From an uncultured Gemmatimonadota bacterium (GTDB lineage: Bacteria > Gemmatimonadota > Gemmatimonadetes > Gemmatimonadales > Gemmatimonadaceae), in assembly GCA_903882745.1 (NCBI GenBank), contig CAIRYG010000002.1, forward strand, positions 124,001 through 188,000: a stretch of DNA of 64,000 nt, in the 5' to 3' direction. Both the position numbers and the translations under genes were made by a program. This document shows positions 33,370 through 45,314 of this stretch, piece after piece; the first letter of the stretch is position 1; each line of letters opens with the position of its first letter. The notes under the pieces were generated by a model. It was given only the letters and a program-made list of their open reading frames with translations. It did no database searches and had not been told where the DNA came from.

Positions 33370-34035
33370 ATGACCGAAGCAGCGCTTTCGCTCGATCACG
33401 CAAAGTTCCGGCGACAACCCGAGGTGCGTCCAGGACAAATCCTCGACGCAGCCGTCAAGGTCTTCACTGACCGCGGCATCGCTGCTGCAAAACTCGAGGA
33501 AATCGCCACACTCGCGGGCGTGAGCAAAGGCACCATCTACCTCTACTTCCACAGCAAGGAAGAGCTCTTCCGCGAAGTCGTCCGCCAAAAAGTCGTGCCG
33601 CTCCTCGCCCTCGCCGACGAAGGCGTCACCGCAGAATCCGCAACAGCGGCACTCCGTGCCTCGCTCGAGCATCACTGGACCTACATGGATCGCGACGACG
33701 CCGAAGGCTGGGTCAGACTCGCGCTCCTGGAACTCCACAAGTTCCCCGACCTCGCACAGTTCTATCGCGACGAAGTCGTCAACCGCTCCAACGCGGTCCT
33801 TTTCGGCATCATCGAACGGGGGATCGCCGCCGGCGAGTTCCGCCCAATCGACGCCGATGCCGCCGTGATGATGATCAAAGGGATCCTCCTCACGCACGTC
33901 ATCTGGTGCGGCGCACACTCGCCGAACCCTGCGATGCGCGCGAAACCGCGCGATCAGATCCTGCACGACATCACGGATTTCGTCCTCCACGCACTGCGCC
34001 CGGTCACACCGGTCGCGGCAACCGTATTCGAATGA
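33370..34035 (+). CDS. TetR-family transcriptional regulator
   Basis: 221 aa. N-terminal helix-turn-helix (about 20-68): ILDAAVKVFTDRGIAA, LEEIATLAGVSKGTIYLYF is the TetR consensus recognition helix, followed by the HSKEELF. C-terminal ligand-binding all-helical domain. First gene of an efflux operon, overlapping tolC by ATGA. Probably represses itself and the efflux genes through the palindromes upstream, and is released by a transported or stress-related ligand that cannot be identified. Confidence 0.93.
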   Translation: MTEAALSLDHAKFRRQPEVRPGQILDAAVKVFTDRGIAAAKLEEIATLAGVSKGTIYLYFHSKEELFREVVRQKVVPLLALADEGVTAESATAALRASLEHHWTYMDRDDAEGWVRLALLELHKFPDLAQFYRDEVVNRSNAVLFGIIERGIAAGEFRPIDADAAVMMIKGILLTHVIWCGAHSPNPAMRAKPRDQILHDITDFVLHALRPVTPVAATVFE

Positions 34036-35387
34036 ACACGACACGCTCAACCCCGCGCGGGCTCCTCGCCCTCGGCCTGCTCACGATATCCGCGATGCAA
34101 CTCCTCGCGCAGACGCCCGTCACGCTCACGCTCGGCGGCGCCGCACGCATGGCCGCGCAAGGCAATGCAGCGCCGATCGCCGCCAAGGAGCGGGTGGCGC
34201 AGGCCGACGCCCGCGTTCGCCAACGGCTCGCAGATTTTCTGCCCAACTTCTCCGTTGGGTTCAGCGACGTAGAGCGCAACTTCAACTCCGCCAGCATGGG
34301 GATCAGCTTCCGCGACGCCACCACGGGCAAGTTCCTCTTCGATCCAAATGGACAAGTGCTCGGACCGGTCCGCGCGTGGGACCTGCGAGGCACCCTGACC
34401 CAGAAGATCTACGACTTCGGATCCTTCGCGCGACTTCGCGCCGCACGGGCCTCCGTGTCCGCGGCCACCGCCGACGTTAGTGTCGCCTCGCAGCAGGCGG
34501 CCGCCATGGCCGCAGGCGCCTACGTGCGCGCCTCCCGCGCCGACGCGCAGTTGGGCGCCCGGATCGCGGACTCGACCCTCGCCGCAGAGCTGCTCGGGAT
34601 CGCCCGCGACCAGCTCACGGCCGGCGTTGGCATCGCGCTCGACGTCACGCGGGCCCAGTCGCAGTTGGCAACCGCGCGCGCGCAGCTGATCTCCGCCCGC
34701 AACGAACGAAATCGGGCGCGCCTCGAACTGAATCGCGCGCTCGGCGTCCCCGCTGCGCAGATGGTAGTGCTGGCCGACTCACTCGCCACGCTCTCCACGA
34801 GCGTCCCAGTCCCCGCCGAGCAGAGCGCGATCGACGTCGCGATGCGCGGCCGCGCCGAGCTGCGCTCCGCCGATGAAGCGACGCGTTCCGCCGAGCGGCA
34901 GATCGATGCCCTCCGCGCCGAACGTCTCCCCTCGCTCGGCCTGTTTGCCGATCAGGGCTCCAACGGCAAAGCACTCGAGCACATGATCCCCACCTATACC
35001 TGGGGCATCTCCCTCTCGGTGCCGGTCTTCGACGGCTTCCGCCGCGATGGACGTATCGACGAACAAGGCGCGGTGATCCGCGAGCTCGGCGTGCGTCGCA
35101 AGGACATCGCCGATCAGGCCGCGACCGATGTACGCGGCGCCCTGCTTGATCTGGCGTCCGCGCGCGAACAGCTCGCCGCGCAAGAAGAACGGCTCGCGCT
35201 CGCCAATCAAGAACTCGCGCAGGCGCGCGATCGCTTTACCGCCGGTGTTTCGGGGAACGCCGATGTGATTTCTGCATCGCTCACGCTGAATGCCGCACGC
35301 ACGCAACTGGTTGATGCTCGCGCCGCCTACTTGGGCGCACGCCTCGCGCTCGCGCGGGCGCAGGGCAATGTGACCGAACTTCCGTAA
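34032..35387 (+). CDS. TolC-family outer-membrane efflux protein
   Basis: 451 aa with a signal peptide (cleavage about LLA-QT, residue 26). Two outer membrane factor repeats rich in Ala/Arg/Gln helices; SLSVPVFDGFRRDGRI in the second repeat and KIYDFGSFARLRAARA in the first are family segments. Forms the outer-membrane trimer channel of a tripartite pump. ATG overlaps the tetR stop, and the adaptor emrA follows 26 bp later. Confidence 0.92.
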   Translation: MNTTRSTPRGLLALGLLTISAMQLLAQTPVTLTLGGAARMAAQGNAAPIAAKERVAQADARVRQRLADFLPNFSVGFSDVERNFNSASMGISFRDATTGKFLFDPNGQVLGPVRAWDLRGTLTQKIYDFGSFARLRAARASVSAATADVSVASQQAAAMAAGAYVRASRADAQLGARIADSTLAAELLGIARDQLTAGVGIALDVTRAQSQLATARAQLISARNERNRARLELNRALGVPAAQMVVLADSLATLSTSVPVPAEQSAIDVAMRGRAELRSADEATRSAERQIDALRAERLPSLGLFADQGSNGKALEHMIPTYTWGISLSVPVFDGFRRDGRIDEQGAVIRELGVRRKDIADQAATDVRGALLDLASAREQLAAQEERLALANQELAQARDRFTAGVSGNADVISASLTLNAARTQLVDARAAYLGARLALARAQGNVTELP

Positions 35388-35413
35388 CCGACTTCCTACC
35401 TGAGACGATACCG

Positions 35414-36496
35414 ATGGCTTCGAACGTGACTCCCAACACCACCGCATCCGCCGCGCCGCAGAAGCGTGGCAAGATGCTCCCGATTCTTGGAACGCTCACC
35501 CTGCTCGGCTGCGTGTGGGCCGGGAAGACCTGGTGGTACAACCAGTCGCACCAGACCACCGACAACGCGCAGGTGGATGGCTCCATCGTCCCCGTGCTCG
35601 CGAAGGTTGGCGGCTACGTGAAGGCCGTGCGCATTGCCGAAAACCAGCCGGTGAAGCTTGGCCAGGAGCTGGTGCAGATTGACGACGCCGAGTACGCCGT
35701 GCGCGTGCAGCAGGCGGAGGCGGAACTGAGTGCCGCCGCGTACGTGGCGGGCGCCGGTGGCGTCGATGGACAGGCGGAGGCGCAGATTCGCGGCGCCGCG
35801 AGCCAGGGCCAAGTGGTACAGGCACAGATCCTCGCCGCGCGGGCCGCACAGGCAAAGGCCGCGGCGGATCTCGCGCGCATGAAGGAGCTCGTGGGCAAGC
35901 AGATCGTGTCGCGCCAGCAGCTCGACGCGGCGCAGGCTGCGTATGATCAGGCCAGTGCGCAGCTCACGGCCACGGAGCGTCAGGCTACCTCCGCGGCCGC
36001 CCAGCTCTCGAACGCAGAGATCGGGTCGAAGTTCGCGCTCGCGCGCTACACCGGGGCGCAGGCCACGTTGAACAATGCGCGGTTGCAGCTCTCGTACACG
36101 AAGGTCGAGGCGCCGGTCACCGGCACCGTGAGCCGCAAGCAGGTGGAGATCGGCCAGCTGGTGCAGGCGGGACAGCCGCTGCTGACGCTCGTGTCGGACA
36201 GCGCCGTCTGGATTACCGCGAACTTCAAGGAAACGCAGCTCGCGTTGTTGAAGGTCGGCCAGGTGGTGGATGTTGAGGTTGATTCGTATCCAGGGTGCAC
36301 GGCGTCAGGAAAGATTGAGAGTCTGAGCGCTGCGACGGGCGCCAAGTTCGCCCTGCTGCCGCCCGACAACTCGACCGGGAACTTCACGAAGGTGGTGCAG
36401 CGCGTGCCGGTGCGAATTGCCATCACCGCAGGGTGTGGCGCGGACCGTCCGCTGCGTCCGGGCATGAGCGTGACTGCCTCCGTCGTGACCAAGTAG
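35414..36496 (+). CDS. EmrA/HlyD-family membrane fusion protein
   Basis: 360 aa. One N-terminal membrane helix (about 22-42) then the periplasmic adaptor: first biotinyl-lipoyl strand TTDNAQVDGSIVPVLAKVGGYV (EmrA signature TDDAYVxG analogue), an alpha-hairpin rich in Ala/Gln (about 80-190), second lipoyl half SYTKVEAPVTGTVSRK, and a beta-barrel. Joins the MFS exporter encoded next to the TolC channel encoded before. Typical length. Confidence 0.93.
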   Translation: MASNVTPNTTASAAPQKRGKMLPILGTLTLLGCVWAGKTWWYNQSHQTTDNAQVDGSIVPVLAKVGGYVKAVRIAENQPVKLGQELVQIDDAEYAVRVQQAEAELSAAAYVAGAGGVDGQAEAQIRGAASQGQVVQAQILAARAAQAKAAADLARMKELVGKQIVSRQQLDAAQAAYDQASAQLTATERQATSAAAQLSNAEIGSKFALARYTGAQATLNNARLQLSYTKVEAPVTGTVSRKQVEIGQLVQAGQPLLTLVSDSAVWITANFKETQLALLKVGQVVDVEVDSYPGCTASGKIESLSAATGAKFALLPPDNSTGNFTKVVQRVPVRIAITAGCGADRPLRPGMSVTASVVTK

Positions 36497-36500
36497 TCCG

Positions 36501-38096
36501 ATGGCCACCGCAGTCCATCCCGCCATCGGCGCGTCCGCTCCAGCCGCGGACGTCGTCGAGGACAAATACAAGTACAAGTATCTCATCGCGATCGCGGTGA
36601 CGATGGCAGCGATGCTCGAGCTGATCGACACGAGCATCGTCAACGTTGCCATTCCGCACATGATGGGAAATCTGGGCGCGACCCTCGACGAGATTTCGTG
36701 GGTCTCGACCGGCTATATCATCGCGAACGTCATCATCATTCCGATGTCGGGCTGGCTCGCGGCCTACTTCGGCCGACGGCGCTATCTGACGGGATCAATC
36801 ATGATCTTCGTCGCCTCGTCCTTCTTCTGCGGGGCCGCACACACCCTCTTCGGACTCGTCTTCTGGCGCGTCGTCCAGGGACTCGGCGGCGGCGCACTGC
36901 TCTCCACCGCACAATCCACACTCTGGGAAGCCTTTCCGCCCAAGGAAGTCGGCATCGGTCAAGCGATGTTCGGCGTGGGCGTCATGGTTGGCCCGACGCT
37001 CGGCCCCACCCTCGGCGGCTACATCGTCGACAACTTTGACTGGCCCTGGATTTTTTACATCAATCTCCCGCTTGGCTTGATCGCGGGACTGATGGTGTGG
37101 AGCTACGTCCGCAACTCCGAGTTGCATCAGAAGGCGACCTCGGTGGATTGGCTCGGCATCGGCTTGCTGACGACCGGCGTCGGCGCGTTGCAGTGGATGC
37201 TTGAGCGCGGCGAGCGCTACGACTGGTTCGAGTCGCGTTTTGTCACCGTCCTTGGTGTCACGGCACTCGTGTCGTTCGTGTGGCTCATCTACCACGAGCT
37301 CACGACCGAGGAGCCGGTGATCAACTTCCGTGTGCTCCATAGTCGGCAGCTGGCCACCGGCGTGGCGATGGCGTCCTTGCTTGGGTTTGCCCTCTTCGGC
37401 TCGGTGTTCGTCCTGCCGGTGTTCCTGCAGGGACTCCATGGATTCACCGCCAATCAAACGGGGCTAGTCATTCTCCCCGGTGCGATTTCATCAGCCATCA
37501 CCATGGCGGTGCTTGGCCGGTTCGCGAGTCGATTCGACGCCCGCCCGCTGATCATCATCGGGGTGCTCGGCTTTCTCTGGTGCATGTGGCGCCTGTCGTT
37601 GCTCTCCTACGACAGCGGCGCGGACGACCTCTTCTGGCCGTTGGTGGCCCGCGGTGTGTCACTCGGTCTCATTTTCATTCCGCTCACCGGCGCGTCGATG
37701 GCGGAGCTCGAGCCGTGGCAAATCCCCCAGGGGACCGGCATGTTCAACCTCATGCGCCAGCTCGGTGGCTCCATGGGGATCGCGATCGTTGCCACGCTCT
37801 TGTCGCGGTTCACGGCACAATCCAAGTCGGTCCTCACCGAGCATGTTGGCATGATCGACCCCAACGTGCTCGCCCGGGTGGACGGGATCAGTCGGGCCAT
37901 GGTGGCACGCGGCATGAACCCCGCGAGCGCGCACGCCATGGCGCTGCGGATGATCGATCGCTCGGTCGGCGCACAGGCCAGTGTGCTCGCATTTTCGAAG
38001 ATCTACATCCTGAGCGGCGTCACGCTGTGCTGCGCGATTCCCCTGATGCTTTTCTGGAAGCACGGCAAGGGACGCGCCGCGGTTCAAGCGCATTAG
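36501..38096 (+). CDS. DHA2-family MFS multidrug exporter (EmrB type)
   Basis: 531 aa with about 14 membrane helices. DHA2 family motifs: LIDTSIVNVAIPHMMGNL in helix 1, motif A variant GWLAAYFGRRRYL, and motif C-like GVGVMVGPTLGPTLGGYI in helix 5. EmrB/QacA exporters of lipophilic drugs work with EmrA. Proton-driven. Gene order tetR-tolC-emrA-emrB is complete here. Ends before a small gene encoding a Spy-like protein. Confidence 0.94.
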   Translation: MATAVHPAIGASAPAADVVEDKYKYKYLIAIAVTMAAMLELIDTSIVNVAIPHMMGNLGATLDEISWVSTGYIIANVIIIPMSGWLAAYFGRRRYLTGSIMIFVASSFFCGAAHTLFGLVFWRVVQGLGGGALLSTAQSTLWEAFPPKEVGIGQAMFGVGVMVGPTLGPTLGGYIVDNFDWPWIFYINLPLGLIAGLMVWSYVRNSELHQKATSVDWLGIGLLTTGVGALQWMLERGERYDWFESRFVTVLGVTALVSFVWLIYHELTTEEPVINFRVLHSRQLATGVAMASLLGFALFGSVFVLPVFLQGLHGFTANQTGLVILPGAISSAITMAVLGRFASRFDARPLIIIGVLGFLWCMWRLSLLSYDSGADDLFWPLVARGVSLGLIFIPLTGASMAELEPWQIPQGTGMFNLMRQLGGSMGIAIVATLLSRFTAQSKSVLTEHVGMIDPNVLARVDGISRAMVARGMNPASAHAMALRMIDRSVGAQASVLAFSKIYILSGVTLCCAIPLMLFWKHGKGRAAVQAH

Positions 38097-38176: not shown

Positions 38177-38761
38177 ATGAAACTCAGACTCTATGTAGCA
38201 CTGGCCCTGATGGCGATGGTCCCCACCTTGGCGACCGCGCAGAAGGGCGGGAAAAGCAGCGGCGGCGGCGATGAAGGCGGCGGTGGTGGTGCACCGGGCG
38301 GTGGCGCGTCCTTCAAGGCCCCGACACGCGGCGACTTGGAAGACATGAATCCGGCCTCGTTCCTGATCGACAAGAAAAAGAAGTTGCAGCTCACCGACGA
38401 ACAGGTTGCGGCCGTCAAGGTGGTCGAGGAACAGATCAAGGAACGCTATAAGGTCAGCCTTGCTGCCTACGATTCGCTGCGTCGCGGCTCGCGCTCCGTG
38501 AGTGCCTCGGTGGGAAGCTCACGGTCGAAGCAGAAGTTCGCGACCGACGCTCCATCGCCGGCCGAGCAGGCCTCGATGCAGGTCGCAATGCGCGGGATTC
38601 AGCAGGCGCTCATGGGAATCCGCAATCAGCGGACGGCCGATGTCGACGCAGCGTTGGCGGCGATCACCGATCCGGCCGTCAAGGCCAAAGCCATTGCCCT
38701 GCTCAAGGATCAGGAAGAGGACTTCATGCGCCTGATGCCGGGCGGCGATCGCGACCGGTAG
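38177..38761 (+). CDS. Exported Gly-rich, Spy/CpxP-like helical protein
   Basis: 194 aa; signal peptide cleaved about ATA-QK (residue 21), SD GGAGG. After a Gly-rich linker (GGGDEGGGGGAPGGGASF, 29-46) comes a helical domain with an LTxEQ-type motif (LQLTDEQVAAVKVVEEQIKE), a typical Spy/CpxP feature. A second helical part (AEQASMQVAMRGIQQALMG) and a terminal DRDR tail. Spy/CpxP proteins are periplasmic chaperones or metal-sensing envelope-stress proteins; similarity here is motif-level only. Follows emrB by 80 bp. Confidence 0.6.
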   Translation: MKLRLYVALALMAMVPTLATAQKGGKSSGGGDEGGGGGAPGGGASFKAPTRGDLEDMNPASFLIDKKKKLQLTDEQVAAVKVVEEQIKERYKVSLAAYDSLRRGSRSVSASVGSSRSKQKFATDAPSPAEQASMQVAMRGIQQALMGIRNQRTADVDAALAAITDPAVKAKAIALLKDQEEDFMRLMPGGDRDR

Positions 38762-39506: not shown

Positions 39507-39647
39507 CCCTCCCCACCCACCGCGCTCCAACGGTCAGCCTCGCGCCCGCGTATTTGGAGGGTGAGACTTGAGGCAAGCGCGACTGTCGCGCCCCTCCCGA
39601 TCGGGTCGATCGGGGGACGGCGTTCACACTCGACCGGCAGCTGGTCC

Positions 39648-40193
39648 GTGACGGACCGTCCACCGGACGAGCGAGATCTCGTACTCTCCGCGCAGCGCGG
39701 CGAGCGAGAGGCGTTCTCGCAACTGGTTCGCACGCATCAACGGCGCGCCTATGCCGTGGCGCGAGCGATTGTAGTCAATCATGAAGACGCCGAGGATGCA
39801 GTGCAGGAAGCCTTCCTGCACGCCTACAAAGCGCTCGATCGATTTCTGCCGGATCAGGCCTTCGGTGCGTGGTTGCACCGGATCGTGGCCAACGCCGCAC
39901 TGGACATTACGCGTAGACGGAAGGTACGAGATGCCGACGAGCTCCCGGAGACGGTCGCCTCGCCATTTCGGGACCCCGCCGAAGGGAATGAACTGCGCCA
40001 GCGCCTGCAGGACGCGTTGGCCAAGCTGCCCGAGCGGCAGCGGTCGGTGATTGTGTTACATGACGTCGAAGGATTCAAGCATTCTGAAATTGGCCAGCTG
40101 CTCGGGATTCCCGAGGGAACAGCGAGATCGGATCTGCATTACGCGCGGTCGCAGTTACGTGGCATTCTGGGACCTGTACGGAGGGATTTATGA
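39648..40193 (+). CDS. ECF-type sigma factor (sigma-70 family)
   Basis: 181 aa from the GTG at 39648; a GTG at 39561 has GGAGG directly against it and would add a 29-residue extension. Sigma region 2 (about 25-90: NHEDAEDAVQEAFLHAYKALDRF and the -10 recognition WLHRIVANAALD) and region 4 (about 118-175: LPERQRSVIVLHDVEGFKHSEIGQLL) with a helix-turn-helix. Directs transcription of a small regulon, probably including this operon, whose next gene overlaps by ATGA and may encode its anti-sigma. Confidence 0.92.
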   Translation: MTDRPPDERDLVLSAQRGEREAFSQLVRTHQRRAYAVARAIVVNHEDAEDAVQEAFLHAYKALDRFLPDQAFGAWLHRIVANAALDITRRRKVRDADELPETVASPFRDPAEGNELRQRLQDALAKLPERQRSVIVLHDVEGFKHSEIGQLLGIPEGTARSDLHYARSQLRGILGPVRRDL

Positions 40194-40561
40194 CAGAGGA
40201 CTTTCGCGGACCGTCGCTCCTGCGCGACGACGAACTGACCACGACGCTGCGCGAGATCTACGCGGCGCCGGTGGAATCCGCGTATTGGAGCGGATTGGAG
40301 GCGCGCATCATGTCGCGCGTGTCCACCAACGATATCGGGGAGGCGTGGTACGTCGTCCCCGAGAAGTGGTTGCGCATCGGCCTCGTGGCGGCAGGGTTCG
40401 CCGTGCTCGTGGCGGGGAGCTTGCTCATGCGGAATCAGACGCAGTACGCTCGGGCGGAGTATGAGACCATTATCGATCCGTCGACGATTGACGCCCCAAC
40501 TCTCGCGGCGCGCGAGCGGATGGCCGAACAGGCCACCATTCGCGCGTTGACGGGTCGCTAG
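40190..40561 (+). CDS. Putative anti-sigma factor, single-pass membrane protein
   Basis: 123 aa, ATG overlapping the sigma-gene stop. Cytoplasmic N-terminal part (about 1-60), one membrane helix (about 64-84, IGLVAAGFAVLVAGSLLM) and a periplasmic tail. Position directly after an ECF sigma gene and one-helix topology suggest the cognate anti-sigma. It has no HxxxCxxC zinc motif, so it is not of the ZAS type. Function inferred from context only. Confidence 0.65.
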   Translation: MTEDFRGPSLLRDDELTTTLREIYAAPVESAYWSGLEARIMSRVSTNDIGEAWYVVPEKWLRIGLVAAGFAVLVAGSLLMRNQTQYARAEYETIIDPSTIDAPTLAARERMAEQATIRALTGR

Positions 40562-40571
40562 GAGACGTGCA

Positions 40572-40946
40572 ATGAGCCGGTCCAAGAGCATGGCCCTCGC
40601 GATGTACCTCCTCGCCGCCCTCGCGGGTGCCGCGGTTGGCGTGGCCGTGGACCGTATTGTGTTCCGCGAGAATGCGCGCTGGTTCGATCAGAAAGCCATG
40701 CGGCAACGCACGTTCGATCAGTTGCACCTCACCCCCGGGCAGCGCGACTCCGCCAACCGGATCTTTGACGACCGCAACCATGCGCAGGATTCGATCCTCG
40801 CACCGGTGCGGCCGCTCCTGGATTCGGCCAGCACGACTGCCCGCGCACGACTCACCCAACTGCTCACTCCCGAGCAGAAGGCGATTTACGACCAAATGCA
40901 GCGCGAGCGCCAACAGCGTGATGCGCAGCGCACGGAGAAGAAATGA
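40572..40946 (+). CDS. Spy-like, membrane-anchored periplasmic protein
   Basis: 124 aa with GGAG 7 nt upstream of the ATG. Uncleaved or signal-like N-terminal helix (about 8-28) then a helical charged domain containing two LTxxQ motifs: LHLTPGQRDSANRI and LLTPEQKAIYDQM, as in Spy/CpxP/ZraP heavy-metal-resistance proteins. Last residues overlap the next ATG. Probably a periplasmic sensor or chaperone of the sigma regulon. Confidence 0.65.
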   Translation: MSRSKSMALAMYLLAALAGAAVGVAVDRIVFRENARWFDQKAMRQRTFDQLHLTPGQRDSANRIFDDRNHAQDSILAPVRPLLDSASTTARARLTQLLTPEQKAIYDQMQRERQQRDAQRTEKK

Positions 40947-42289
40947 CGTTCGGCACCATCCGCCAAGCCATGGGAACGTTCGCCACGGGTGCGCTTGCCC
41001 TTGGCATCGTGGCCCTCGCCCCGTCGCTCGCCCGTGCTCAGGGCAACGCCGGCGCGCGCCCCATCTCGCTCGAGGAAGCGGTTCGCCTCGCCCAGCAGAA
41101 CTCGCCGCTGACGGTCCAGGCTCGTAACGCGAATCGCACCAGCGAATCGGCGGTGCGCGCGTCGTTGGCCCAGTTTCTCCCGACCGCGGCGTTCTCGTAC
41201 TCCGGCAACCAAGCGGGTGGCACGCAGTTCGTGCAGGGAACACCGGTGCCCACCACGGGACTCCCGTGGAGCTACAGCCGGTCGCTGTCGTCGAACTTCA
41301 CCCTCTACGATGGTGGCCAGCGCAACTACAACCTGCGCGCAGCCCAAGCCAACCTTGAGAGCGCTGGCGCGAACGAAGTGGCCCAGCGCTACAGTGTGGC
41401 CCTCACCGTCAAGACGCAGTACTTCAACGTGCTGGCCGCCAACGAGCAGCTCGCCGCGTCGAAGCAGCTCTTGGAGCAGGCACTGCTGCAGTTGACCGTC
41501 GCCTCGGCCAAGATGAAGGCCGGCGTCGCCACGCTCGCTGACTCGCTTACCTCCGCGATCGCGGTTGGGAACGCCAAGCTGTCGATCCTCACCGCCGAGA
41601 ACTCGCTGCGGAACGCCAACGCTGCGCTGACGCGGCTGGTTGCGTCGCCGGTGATGGTCACCGCAACCCTCGCCGATACGATGGACACCGGCAAGGTTGA
41701 GCTCGACGAAGCACAGCTCCTCTCCATGGTCTCCGATGGCCCGTCGGTGCGTCAGTCGACGCAGGCACTCGAGGCCGCGCGCGCGCAGCACAAGGCGGCC
41801 ACCACGCCGTACATGCCGACGCTCGCCTTGAACGCGTCCTACGGACAGAACCCCAAGGCGTCGCAGAACTTCAATTTCGGTGGTGGCCCGACGGCGACCT
41901 CGACGCGCTTTGGGCTGTCGTTGAACTACACGATTTTCAATAACTACACGCGCGAGCAGTCGCTGTTGGTCGCGCGGGTGAACGCCGAGAACGCCGAGGC
42001 GAATCTCCGCGACGCCAAGGCGCTCGTCGTACAGAACCTCACCACGTTCCTGAGCAACTACCGCACGGCGCAGTCGACCATCGAGCTGCAGCTGCTGACC
42101 ATTCAGTCGGCGCGGGAAGCACTCCGCGTGGTGCAGCAACGCTACAACCTGGGCACCTCGAGCCTCCTCGAAGTCTTGCAGGCCGAGACGACGCTCGACA
42201 ACGCCCGGGCGCAGCTCATCAACGCTCGCGTCAATGCGCGCATCGCGAAGGCCAACATCGAAGCGCTGATCGGGCGCGACCTGAAGTAA
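40943..42289 (+). CDS. TolC-family outer-membrane efflux protein
   Basis: 448 aa, signal peptide cleaved about ARA-QG (residue 33). Outer membrane factor with two repeats: SLEEAVRLAQQNSPLTVQARN and the C-terminal repeat GTSSLLEVLQAETTLDNARAQL are typical. Beta-barrel strands around QAGGTQFVQG. Second TolC in the window; the first is at 34032. Start overlaps the previous gene, and a TAATG links it to the next. Confidence 0.93.
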   Translation: MTFGTIRQAMGTFATGALALGIVALAPSLARAQGNAGARPISLEEAVRLAQQNSPLTVQARNANRTSESAVRASLAQFLPTAAFSYSGNQAGGTQFVQGTPVPTTGLPWSYSRSLSSNFTLYDGGQRNYNLRAAQANLESAGANEVAQRYSVALTVKTQYFNVLAANEQLAASKQLLEQALLQLTVASAKMKAGVATLADSLTSAIAVGNAKLSILTAENSLRNANAALTRLVASPVMVTATLADTMDTGKVELDEAQLLSMVSDGPSVRQSTQALEAARAQHKAATTPYMPTLALNASYGQNPKASQNFNFGGGPTATSTRFGLSLNYTIFNNYTREQSLLVARVNAENAEANLRDAKALVVQNLTTFLSNYRTAQSTIELQLLTIQSAREALRVVQQRYNLGTSSLLEVLQAETTLDNARAQLINARVNARIAKANIEALIGRDLK

Positions 42290-42336: not shown

Positions 42337-44091
42337 GTGAACCGCACGTTCCTGATGCTCACCCTCGTCGCCCTCACGGCCTGTGCCAAGGCCGAGACCA
42401 AGGTTGCGACGATCCCCACGGCGACCATTCAGCGTCGCGACATTGTCGTGAACGCCGAGGCGACCGGCATCATTGAGCCAATCAACGTCATCGAGGTCAA
42501 GTCGAAGACGGCCTCGGGCCAAGTCACGAAGATGTCGATCGAAATCGGCACCTTCGTCAAGCCCGGCGACCTGATTGTGCAAATCGACACCACCGACCTG
42601 CACACGCAGTTCGAGCAGTCGAAAGCGGACTTTACCGCCGCCAGCTCGAACTTCGAAGTGGCCAAGGCACAGCTCACGCGTCAGCAGCAGCTGTTCAAGG
42701 AGCGCATCATTACCCAGTCGGAACTGGAAACAGCACAGACTGCGTTTGCAAATGCGCAGGCAACGCAGCTCCGCAACCAGGGGACGCGTGACCTGAACGC
42801 CCAGCGCCTCACGGATGCGACGGTCCGTGCCTCGATCACCGGCACCATCATCACCAAGCCGGTCTCGCTCGGCCAAGTGATTCAGGCCGGCGGTGGCTCG
42901 GTAAGCGGTGGCTCTGTGATTGCGACGATGGCCGACCTCACCAAGGTTCGGGCCCGCGCGCTCGTGAACGAAACCGACATCGGCGCCGTGGCCGCAGGAC
43001 AGCCCGCAACGGTGACGGTCGACGCCTTCCCGGATCGTGTCTTCCGCGGCATCGTCGAGAAGATTGAGCCCTCGGCGACCGTTCAGCAGAACGTGACGAT
43101 GTTCCCCGTACTGATTTCGCTCGATAACAGCGAAGGGCTGCTGCGCCCCGGCATGAACGGCGAAGTCGCCGTGCTGACCGACGAGCGCCTTGGCGTGATT
43201 GCCGTTCCGAACGATGCGATCCGTTCGCCGCGTGAAGCGGCGGTCGCCGCTGGCCTGCTCGGCCTGAACCCGGACTCGGTGCGCGCGAAGCTGCGTGGCC
43301 CCGGCGGTGGGAATGGCGGCGGTCGTGGCGGTAACGGTGGTGGACGTGGCGGTAGTGGTGGTGGTGCCATGGGTGGTGGTATCGGTGGCGGCGGTGGGCG
43401 TGGCGACGCGCAGGTCAGCAAGGGTGAGCTCGACCTCCTCGCCATCCAGGGTGGTGGGCAGGATCGTCAGGGTGGCGGCTTCAGCCGTGGTCCGCAGGTC
43501 GAAGTGACTGATGCCGACTGTAAGGCCATTGATGCCGCCATGAAGAAGAAGCCGGCGGTCGCCAAGAAGCTCGACGACCTCCGCACCAAGATGAGCGATC
43601 CGAGCGCCGACCGTACCGCACTGCGTGATCAGATGACCGGGCTGTACAAGGACCTGGGCGTCGACATGATGAAGAGCGGCGCCTGCCGTCGTAAAGCCGG
43701 CGGCAATGGTGGTGGCGGCCAGGGTGGTGGTGGCCAGGGCGGTGGTGGACGCGGCGGCCGAACCGGTGGCGGCGCTGTGCCGGGCGCCGGTGCGATGGCC
43801 AGCGGCCGTCAGCGTCAGCGTACGGGGCTCGTCTTCATCCAGAAGGGCGCCACGTGGGAGCCAAAGTCGGTCCGCCTCGGCGTCGCGAACTATGACTACA
43901 CCGAAGTGATCGACGGGCTCGCCGAAGGCGACAAGGTTGCAATGCTCAGCGTCGCGGCGCTGCAGGCCAAGCGTCAGGAGCAGAACGACCGCATGAAGTC
44001 CATGACCGGTAGCCCGTTGGGTGGTGGAGCCGCTGCGAGTGGCGGTGGTGGTCGCGGTGGTCCTGGCGGTGGCGGCGGTCGAGGCAACTAG
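42337..44091 (+). CDS. Membrane fusion (adaptor) lipoprotein with Gly-rich, Cys-bearing insertion
   Basis: 584 aa from the GTG at 42337 (GGAG 6 nt upstream, lipobox LTAC at residues 13-16, MNRTFLMLTLVALTAC); ATG at 42289 (coupled TAATG) is an alternative. MacA-type order: lipoyl half EATGIIEPINVIEVKSKT, alpha-hairpin (about 70-145), second lipoyl half RASITGTIITKPVSLG, beta-barrel, then PNDAIRSPREA. About 200 residues are inserted here: Gly-rich tract (encoded 43291-43420), a charged helical segment with Cys (43510-43690, DADCKAI to SGACRRK), a second Gly-rich tract (to 43780); the family sequence resumes at TGLVFIQKGATWEP. Partner of the permease that follows. Confidence 0.88.
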   Translation: MNRTFLMLTLVALTACAKAETKVATIPTATIQRRDIVVNAEATGIIEPINVIEVKSKTASGQVTKMSIEIGTFVKPGDLIVQIDTTDLHTQFEQSKADFTAASSNFEVAKAQLTRQQQLFKERIITQSELETAQTAFANAQATQLRNQGTRDLNAQRLTDATVRASITGTIITKPVSLGQVIQAGGGSVSGGSVIATMADLTKVRARALVNETDIGAVAAGQPATVTVDAFPDRVFRGIVEKIEPSATVQQNVTMFPVLISLDNSEGLLRPGMNGEVAVLTDERLGVIAVPNDAIRSPREAAVAAGLLGLNPDSVRAKLRGPGGGNGGGRGGNGGGRGGSGGGAMGGGIGGGGGRGDAQVSKGELDLLAIQGGGQDRQGGGFSRGPQVEVTDADCKAIDAAMKKKPAVAKKLDDLRTKMSDPSADRTALRDQMTGLYKDLGVDMMKSGACRRKAGGNGGGGQGGGGQGGGGRGGRTGGGAVPGAGAMASGRQRQRTGLVFIQKGATWEPKSVRLGVANYDYTEVIDGLAEGDKVAMLSVAALQAKRQEQNDRMKSMTGSPLGGGAAASGGGGRGGPGGGGGRGN

Positions 44092-44093
44092 CC

Positions 44094-45314
44094 ATGCTCA
44101 TTGGCGAAACGATTCGCGTCGCACTGGGCGCCCTCCGCGCGAACAAGCTCCGCTCGATGCTCACGATGCTCGGTATCGTGATCGGCGTGTCGGCAGTGAT
44201 CGCGGTGGTTGCGCTCGGGCGCGGTGCCCAGAAGCAGGTGAACGATCGCATTGCTGCGCTCGGCACCACCCTGCTGACCGTCAACCCGGGCCAAGGGATG
44301 ACGGGTGGCGTGCGCACGGGCGGCGGCGGCGCCAAGCTGACGATCGACGACGCCACGGCGCTCGTCGATCGTGGCGAGAAGATTGCGGCCGTCCAACCCG
44401 AGATCAACGGGAACCTGCAGGTGCAGTTCCTCAACAAGAACACCAACACCTCGATCGTTGGCACCACGTCCAACTATCCTGAGGTTCGCAAGTACGAGAT
44501 TGAAACGGGACGCTTCTTTACCAAAACCGAAGACCAGACACGCCAGCGTGTGGCCGTGCTTGGTCCGACCGTTGTGGAGAACCTTGGCCTGCAGAGCAAC
44601 GACGCCATCGTTGGGGAACAGATTCGCATCCGCGGTATCCAGTTCACCGTCGTCGGAGTCTTCAAGTCCAAGGGCCAGGCGAGCGCCTTCTCGAATCCCG
44701 ACGACCAGATTCTGCTCCCGGTCCAGACGGCGCGGTTCCGCGTCCTCGGCACCAACCGCGTGCGCTCGATCAGTGTGCTCGCGCCGTCAGAGGCAGAGAT
44801 TCCCGAGACCATGGGCGACATCCAGAAGATTCTGCGCCGCGAACACAAGCTGCGCGCCGGCAAGGATGACGATTTCCAGATCCGCAATCAGTCGGACTTC
44901 CTGAACACGCTCGGCGAAACAACGGCCGTGTTCAGCCTCCTGCTCGCGGGCATCGCCGCCGTATCGCTGGTGGTCGGCGGCATCGGCATCATGAACATCA
45001 TGCTGGTGTCGGTCACCGAGCGTACCCGCGAAATTGGCGTTCGTAAGGCGCTCGGTGCGACCAAGATGAACATTCTGTTCCAGTTCCTCATTGAGGCCGT
45101 CGTGCTCTGCCTACTGGGCGGCATGATCGGCATCATGGTGGGCGCGGGCGGCGCTATGGCGTTCAGCAAGTTCTTCGGCTGGAGCACCGAAGTCGGACTC
45201 TCGAGCGTCATCGTGGCCTTTGGGTTCTCGGCGTTTGTGGGTGTGGTGTTCGGGGTCTACCCCGCGCGCCGCGCCGCTGGACTCGATCCGATTGTGGCGC
45301 TGCGCTACGAGTAG
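44094..45314 (+). CDS. MacB-type ABC transporter permease (FtsX/MacB_PCD)
   Basis: 406 aa. N-terminal helix (about 25-45, SMLTMLGIVIGVSAVIAVVAL), periplasmic MacB core domain (about 55-270), then three helices in an FtsX domain (LLLAGIAAVSLVVGGIGIMNIMLVSVTERTREIG, ALGATKMNILFQFLIEA, and the last at about 375-395). MacB normally has an ATPase domain at its N-terminus or an ATPase gene beside it; none is here, and the downstream gene is TonB on the opposite strand, so the ATPase must come from elsewhere if the pump is complete. It follows the adaptor gene by 2 bp. Confidence 0.9.
   Translation: MLIGETIRVALGALRANKLRSMLTMLGIVIGVSAVIAVVALGRGAQKQVNDRIAALGTTLLTVNPGQGMTGGVRTGGGGAKLTIDDATALVDRGEKIAAVQPEINGNLQVQFLNKNTNTSIVGTTSNYPEVRKYEIETGRFFTKTEDQTRQRVAVLGPTVVENLGLQSNDAIVGEQIRIRGIQFTVVGVFKSKGQASAFSNPDDQILLPVQTARFRVLGTNRVRSISVLAPSEAEIPETMGDIQKILRREHKLRAGKDDDFQIRNQSDFLNTLGETTAVFSLLLAGIAAVSLVVGGIGIMNIMLVSVTERTREIGVRKALGATKMNILFQFLIEAVVLCLLGGMIGIMVGAGGAMAFSKFFGWSTEVGLSSVIVAFGFSAFVGVVFGVYPARRAAGLDPIVALRYE

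Follow-up and report, generated by a model that had tools for sequence, protein, structure and literature searches.

A conserved Cys-pair helical mini-domain inserted in a MacA-type periplasmic adaptor of Gemmatimonadaceae

Results

A MacB-type pump operon with an unusual adaptor

The window analyzed here is a 64,000-nucleotide stretch of DNA from an uncultured member of the Gemmatimonadaceae (GenBank assembly GCA_903882745.1, contig CAIRYG010000002.1, positions 124,001 to 188,000). It carries an operon that encodes, in order, an HD domain, an ECF sigma factor, a putative anti-sigma factor, a Spy/CnrX-like periplasmic protein, a TolC-type channel, a MacA-type adaptor and a MacB-type permease (Table 1). 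Nearly all of 33 relatives have the same arrangement, leaving aside loci that are cut by contig ends.

Table 1. Genes of the pump operon and features of its adaptor, in window positions
Feature	Position	Strand	Evidence
ECF sigma factor	39561..40193	+	Sigma70_r2 3.9e-18, Sigma70_r4_2 1.9e-17
Putative anti-sigma factor, 123 aa	40190..40561	+	Behind ECF sigma gene; one TM-like stretch at residue 61; no Pfam match
Membrane-anchored Spy/CnrX-like periplasmic protein, 124 aa	40572..40946	+	LTXXQ 2.8e-4, just under curated cut-off
TolC-type outer membrane channel	40943..42289	+	Pfam OEP 9.3e-56; neighbor kept in nearly all loci
MacA-type periplasmic adaptor	42337..44091	+	584 aa from GTG; TIGR01730, NF008606 and HlyD_D23 matches
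Helical base of insertion, SPREAAVAAGLLGLNPDSVRAKL	43228..43293	+	Model helices 275-284 and 289-296; motif in f1, f2 and f4 adaptors
Whole insertion, 194 residues, membrane-proximal domain	43240..43821	+	Without counterpart in MacA 4dk0; composition
Gly-rich linker 1, 68 aa, 50% Gly, predicted disordered	43291..43494	+	pLDDT ~30-36
Short motif within linker 1, SKGELDLLAIQ	43417..43449	+	Read by eye from relatives
Cys-pair helical mini-domain, 69 aa, four predicted helices	43495..43701	+	Profile search, alignments, AlphaFold2, dN/dS
First invariant Cys, Cys395 codon (start of helix 1)	43519..43521	+	C in 55/55 distinct copies covering the column
Second invariant Cys, Cys450 codon (helix 4)	43684..43686	+	C in 55/55 distinct copies covering the column
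Gly-rich linker 2, 42 aa, 52% Gly, predicted disordered	43696..43821	+	pLDDT ~31-48
Gly-rich C-terminal tail of adaptor, 27 aa, 59% Gly	44008..44088	+	Composition
MacB-type permease, 406 aa, periplasmic core and FtsX	44094..45314	+	MacB_PCD 8.6e-49, FtsX 1.1e-18

The start codon of the adaptor gene is ambiguous. An ATG at 42289, 16 codons further upstream, would yield a protein of 600 amino acids, and a signal peptide begins directly after the GTG at 42337, from which residues are counted here. The adaptor belongs to the RND_mfp superfamily, scoring 173.3 bits against TIGR01730 (5.9e-51) where the cut-off is 94.9, and it also matches Pfam HlyD_D23 (9.8e-20). However, its match to the MacA equivalog NF008606 (E 1.4e-23) reaches only 83.7 bits against a cut-off of 342, which places it outside MacA proper. 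The predicted structure resembles MacA of Escherichia coli (9qgy_G, Z 22.6) and of Aggregatibacter actinomycetemcomitans (4dk0, Z 21.0), with these values spanning approximately 308-319 residues of the model.

By secondary structure and by its match to MacA structures, the adaptor model contains all of the hairpin, lipoyl, barrel and membrane-proximal domains known from the MacAB-TolC adaptor (5nik, 9qgy, 4dk0), and its gene likewise adjoins those for a MacB-type permease and a TolC protein. It departs from the known system in three respects: it has a 194-residue insertion in the membrane-proximal domain, the permease beside it lacks an ATPase domain, and it carries a lipobox where E. coli MacA has a transmembrane helix. 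The lipobox-like sequence LTAC, which includes Cys16, indicates that the adaptor is probably a lipoprotein. Cys16, Cys395 and Cys450 are its only cysteines.

A permease operon lacking an ATPase gene

The permease, which is the presumed partner of the adaptor, matches the MacB model NF007826 only at its C-terminal part (256-646) and has no nucleotide-binding domain. MacB membership calls for such a domain, whether as part of the permease itself or from a separate gene of the operon, and neither was found here. No gene for an ATPase with an ABC signature was found in the window, in the loci of the 33 relatives, or in the fetched family members whose adaptors lack the mini-domain. A sister family (f2) has the same gene order plus an ABC ATPase gene between those for TolC and the adaptor.

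The retained coupling region of the permease, ERTREIGVRKALGAT, makes it likely that the permease borrows in trans an ATPase encoded elsewhere. In the same genome, the ATPase closest to that of the sister family (73% identity) lies on another contig (C11:401218-401904, genome G000), within its own TolC-adaptor-ATPase-permease-permease operon, and it is the nearest candidate for this role. A second single-unit MacB-type permease (L156; G000:C10:386138-387343) is 59% identical to the one in the window and has neither an adaptor nor an ATPase gene beside it.

An apparent CnrYXH-like regulatory unit

CnrX is a member of the Spy superfamily. The Spy/CnrX-like protein of the operon has one N-terminal hydrophobic segment, and PDB profile searches with it match Spy (0.0041) and CpxP (0.1). 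Genes for an ECF sigma factor and a Spy-like protein also precede the pump in four sister-family loci, one of which has an anti-sigma match.

In the CnrYXH system of Cupriavidus, an ECF sigma factor is released by a periplasmic sensor that is bound to the membrane (PMC7689651). Positions 39561-40946 look like a similar unit, judging by gene order: an ECF sigma factor, a putative anti-sigma factor and a membrane-anchored Spy/CnrX-like protein are followed by a tripartite pump. However, the pump regulated by CnrYXH is of the RND type, whereas the pump in the window has a MacB-type ABC permease, and its regulation is read from the arrangement of the genes. A second Spy-like candidate (38177-38761), with a Gly-rich start and an LTXXQ match that is not significant (E 0.82), stands behind a TolC-HlyD-EmrB-type cluster (33906-38096).

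Anatomy of the insertion

The original prediction held that the adaptor family sequence is broken by about 200 residues in the membrane-proximal region. The open frame bears this out: after PNDAIRSPREA come two Gly-rich tracts enclosing a segment that runs from DADCKAI to SGACRRK, and the family sequence resumes at TGLVFIQKGATWEP. The insertion occupies residues 302-495 and is 31% Gly. Alignment to MacA of known structure (4dk0/4dk1, 1e-23 overall) runs to the equivalent of PNDAIRSPREAAV and restarts, without an intervening insertion, at the equivalent of TGLVFIQKG, which supports the membrane-proximal location. The last aligned strand of the adaptor before the insertion ends in PNDAIRSPREA.

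The helical base of the insertion includes LLGLNPDSV, which is common to sister families of the phylum in the form ...VLGLDP..V. The insertion site differs from group to group within the phylum, and relatives have linkers of different lengths. Linker 1 carries a short motif that recurs in relatives as SNGEVDLLPQG, SRGELAFPLQG and SRAELDPMLLQG, following the pattern S-x-G/A-E-L/V-D-L-L..QG. This is a possible linear binding motif.

A predicted four-helix fold between disordered linkers

The original prediction had called for modeling of the adaptor together with the permease. In an AlphaFold2 model of the full-length protein built on 30 orthologues, the helical segment is predicted to be a folded four-helix domain (pLDDT ~85-92) between two disordered linkers that score 30-35. 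The helices span segment positions 6-18, 20-33, 40-54 and 58-68 (model residues 369-381, 383-396, 403-417 and 421-435). When the mini-domain is folded alone, four helices are again obtained with a mean pLDDT of 84.8. Because the pLDDT of the linkers is low, the placement of the mini-domain relative to the remainder of the adaptor is tentative in the model.

In the predicted layout, helices 1 and 2 run outward to a tip loop at positions 34-39 and helices 3 and 4 run back. Within the 69-residue segment, the two cysteines are at positions 9 and 64, so that their midpoint (36.5) falls inside the tip loop and the pair is symmetric about the tip. If the hairpin is antiparallel, the two cysteines would face each other at its base.

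Pfam, PDB profile, Foldseek and structural comparisons turned up no relative of the mini-domain with a known function. The PDB sequence profile search yielded no match, and structure comparison gave no Z of at least 5 to any known structure. Foldseek returned no significant known fold (best E 1.4), a result that does not prove the fold to be new. A weak resemblance to 60KD_IMP/YidC in Pfam and profile searches (E 0.02-0.04) was taken as chance, and YidC (3wo6) scores Z 3.9 in structure comparison, the same level as unrelated helical proteins.

Conservation and purifying selection

When the mini-domain alone (a 68-aa segment) was used as a query against a sample of 148 genomes of its own family, and a near-identical genome was set aside, orthologues were found at the same site of the adaptor with E values down to 1e-25. 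Profile searching extended the matches to 5.9e-37 and identified the mini-domain in 69 of the 395 genomes that represented the phylum. Every one of these belongs to the Gemmatimonadaceae, and together they cover 20 of the 138 genera sampled in the phylum. The genome under study holds one copy. A scan of genome contigs with one peptide pattern, which has limited sensitivity, uncovered 33 loci. Their titles refer to Gemmatimonadetes, Gemmatimonadota, Gemmatimonadaceae or Gemmatimonas, with the exception of one titled only ‘bacterium’. Among the matches listed for plasmid-borne relatives, coverage extends over approximately residues 4-318, the first half of the protein, and these are therefore uninformative on the insertion.

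Both cysteines are present in all distinct copies that cover their columns (51 in a single match and four split by a long tip loop). Val4 and Tyr51 are also invariant in these 55 copies, and Asp6, Pro20, Met33, Gly55, Asp57 and Ala63 are nearly so. An alignment of 31 sequences has eight invariant columns, both cysteines among them. Pairwise dN/dS values for the mini-domain range from 0 to 0.33 and are near those of the adaptor core in most pairs. The linkers are constrained as well, with values of 0.02-0.34 for linker 1 and 0.13-0.59 for linker 2, the least constrained part.

The original prediction was to be abandoned if the insertion were absent from all relatives or were low-complexity sequence lacking conserved residues. 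Instead, there are orthologues, invariant residues and purifying dN/dS values. Because it is kept with both cysteines across much of the Gemmatimonadaceae, the mini-domain is real and under purifying selection. It is not low-complexity sequence.

History within the phylum

A tree of 67 rows was built on the neighboring permease. Adaptors with the Cys pair occupy nearly all branches of their own family in this tree, including deep ones, while adaptors with only a Gly-rich linker fall into about seven separate groups. This count was made after the labels of two loci were corrected by hand: in one (L098) the adaptor is split into two open reading frames with the mini-domain in the second, and in the other (L116) the two cysteines lie in a frame run-on beyond the Gly tail. 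On the simplest reading of the tree, the mini-domain is probably ancestral in Gemmatimonadaceae and was lost about seven times, each loss leaving a Gly-rich linker.

In one clade (G014, G042, G064 and L105; loci L127, L128, L129 and L105), the tip loop has itself acquired a Gly-rich stretch of about 36-76 residues. The cysteines are 91-131 residues apart there rather than the usual 54-56, and both are retained.

Adaptors of the sister family carry at the same site a helical segment that lacks cysteines, TLPEGVTAEQVRxxFxKxxSG..LTPAEQ. Kinship between this segment and the mini-domain found no support (hhalign probability 2.8%), although the two have their site and the VLGLDP helix in common. An adaptor from another family in the class (L143) has a short segment at the same site with two cysteines 26 apart, ADCAALRERIRTGGFESLSEAERARLRECRG.

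Nature of the Cys pair

The two cysteines had been proposed to form a disulfide or to bind metal, and the former is favored by our findings. The cysteines always occur together, including in copies with a longer tip, they are symmetric about the tip, the protein is periplasmic, and the genome encodes DsbA-like and VKOR proteins in adjoining genes (C14:148653-149569). From these observations we infer that the pair likely forms a disulfide and so staples the helical hairpin at its base. Metal binding is not favored. The conserved potential ligands in the mini-domain sequence are the two cysteines, Met33, Asp6, Asp39 and Asp57; with only two cysteines and no conserved His, a metal site appears less likely.

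Discussion

The adaptor described here is a real, conserved and lineage-specific variant of the known MacA-type adaptors, and we infer its function from comparison with better-characterized pumps. In the E. coli pump, MacA is a hexamer placed on a dimer of MacB, and its membrane-proximal ring touches the periplasmic domain of MacB, leaving an accessible cavity between them (PMC5985334). The membrane-proximal domains of adaptors have been proposed to present cargo, and the adaptor SilB has an extra metallochaperone domain (PMC4446572). SilB and CusB heavy-metal adaptors offer a parallel for an adaptor equipped with an additional small periplasmic domain (PMC4446572). However, the extra domain of SilB is a C-terminal beta-barrel, whereas the domain in the window is all-helical, carries a Cys pair and lies inside the membrane-proximal domain.

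Our leading explanation, to which we assign somewhat less than an even chance, is that the mini-domain serves as a tethered capture module for a client or partner. A folded domain of about 60 residues would be attached to the membrane-proximal domain by a pair of flexible Gly-rich tethers, with the base of its helical hairpin stapled by the putative disulfide. MacA-type adaptors function as hexamers on a dimer of MacB, so the number of mini-domains around the periplasmic entrance of the permease could reach six in an assembled pump. Each could bind a pump client or a periplasmic partner and hold the bound molecule near the entrance cavity. The capture module fits best with the position and anatomy of the insertion, namely a membrane-proximal site and a folded unit with a flexible tether on either side. 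Client binding is a guess, as no domain of known function is recognizably related. The mini-domain is evidently not essential to pumping, given that it was lost about seven times in the family while the pump stayed.

Alternatively, the mini-domain might act as a structural clamp that folds back on the permease core or on a neighboring adaptor and stabilizes the assembly, perhaps offsetting the missing operon ATPase. Its location agrees with such a role, since the same domain of the E. coli adaptor touches MacB, as does the fact that loss of the operon ATPase and presence of the mini-domain both map to Gemmatimonadaceae. However, a clamp is difficult to reconcile with two long linkers that are predicted to be disordered, and lineages that lost the mini-domain retain the permease and TolC, making this explanation unlikely. 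A further alternative, in which the insertion is a neutral spacer at a Gly-tolerant site and its helical part a relic, would account for the variability of the site across the phylum, the differing linker lengths and the repeated losses. This proposal is very improbable and is largely refuted by the signs of selection, including dN/dS values near those of the core, the invariant residues and the retention of both cysteines in all 55 distinct copies.

The charged helices had also been likened to those of Spy-like proteins encoded nearby, and the mini-domain could in principle be a Spy/CpxP/ZraP/CnrX-type domain that was fused into the adaptor and binds misfolded protein or metal. It shares with this superfamily a small, charged and all-helical periplasmic character, and its predicted fold may resemble theirs weakly: ZraP (3lay, E 1.4-3.0) and CnrX (2y39 and others, E 3.9-6.5) appear repeatedly near the head of the Foldseek list, at values that are not significant, and Spy (6owx) scores Z 3.4 over 55 residues and ZraP Z 3.1, among many unrelated helical proteins. 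Moreover, its V[TS]DA[DQ] start resembles LTxxQ, and the gene two places upstream of the adaptor gene codes for a Spy/CnrX-like protein. However, sequence kinship with Spy found no support, in that Pfam LTXXQ (PF07813) matched none of 22 mini-domain members up to E 1, hhalign assigned a probability of 1% to a relationship with the operon's own Spy-like family, and the PDB sequence search was empty. An invariant Cys pair is also atypical for Spy. We consider a fused Spy-type domain improbable, and the initial impression may stem from short charged helices that begin with T-x-x-Q/D. A thiol redox switch, in which the Cys pair senses periplasmic oxidation and alters pump activity, is quite improbable as well. 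The invariance of the pair, the genes for DsbA-like and VKOR proteins and the ECF sigma gene within the operon are compatible with a switch, but structural disulfides are conserved likewise, and the mini-domain has no CxxC motif, its cysteines being spaced 55 apart.

If the capture module is combined with the other features of the locus, a broader but speculative scheme can be drawn, although it is unlikely to hold in full. An adaptor ring bearing up to six tethered and stapled domains would catch clients of envelope stress, such as damaged lipoproteins, peptides or amphiphiles, and pass them on to the MacB-type permease. The permease would draw on an ATPase from another operon, and the pump would be controlled by an ECF sigma factor together with a CnrX-like sensor.

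How MacB-type pumps gather their periplasmic clients is unsettled, and the membrane-proximal domain of the adaptor is suspected of presenting cargo. An extra domain at this site that is maintained by selection, probably ancestral in the family and then lost several times provides a clean natural experiment for judging the contribution of such a module. Likewise, a conserved operon lacking an ATPase gene raises the question of whether MacB-type permeases can share an ATPase that is encoded elsewhere.
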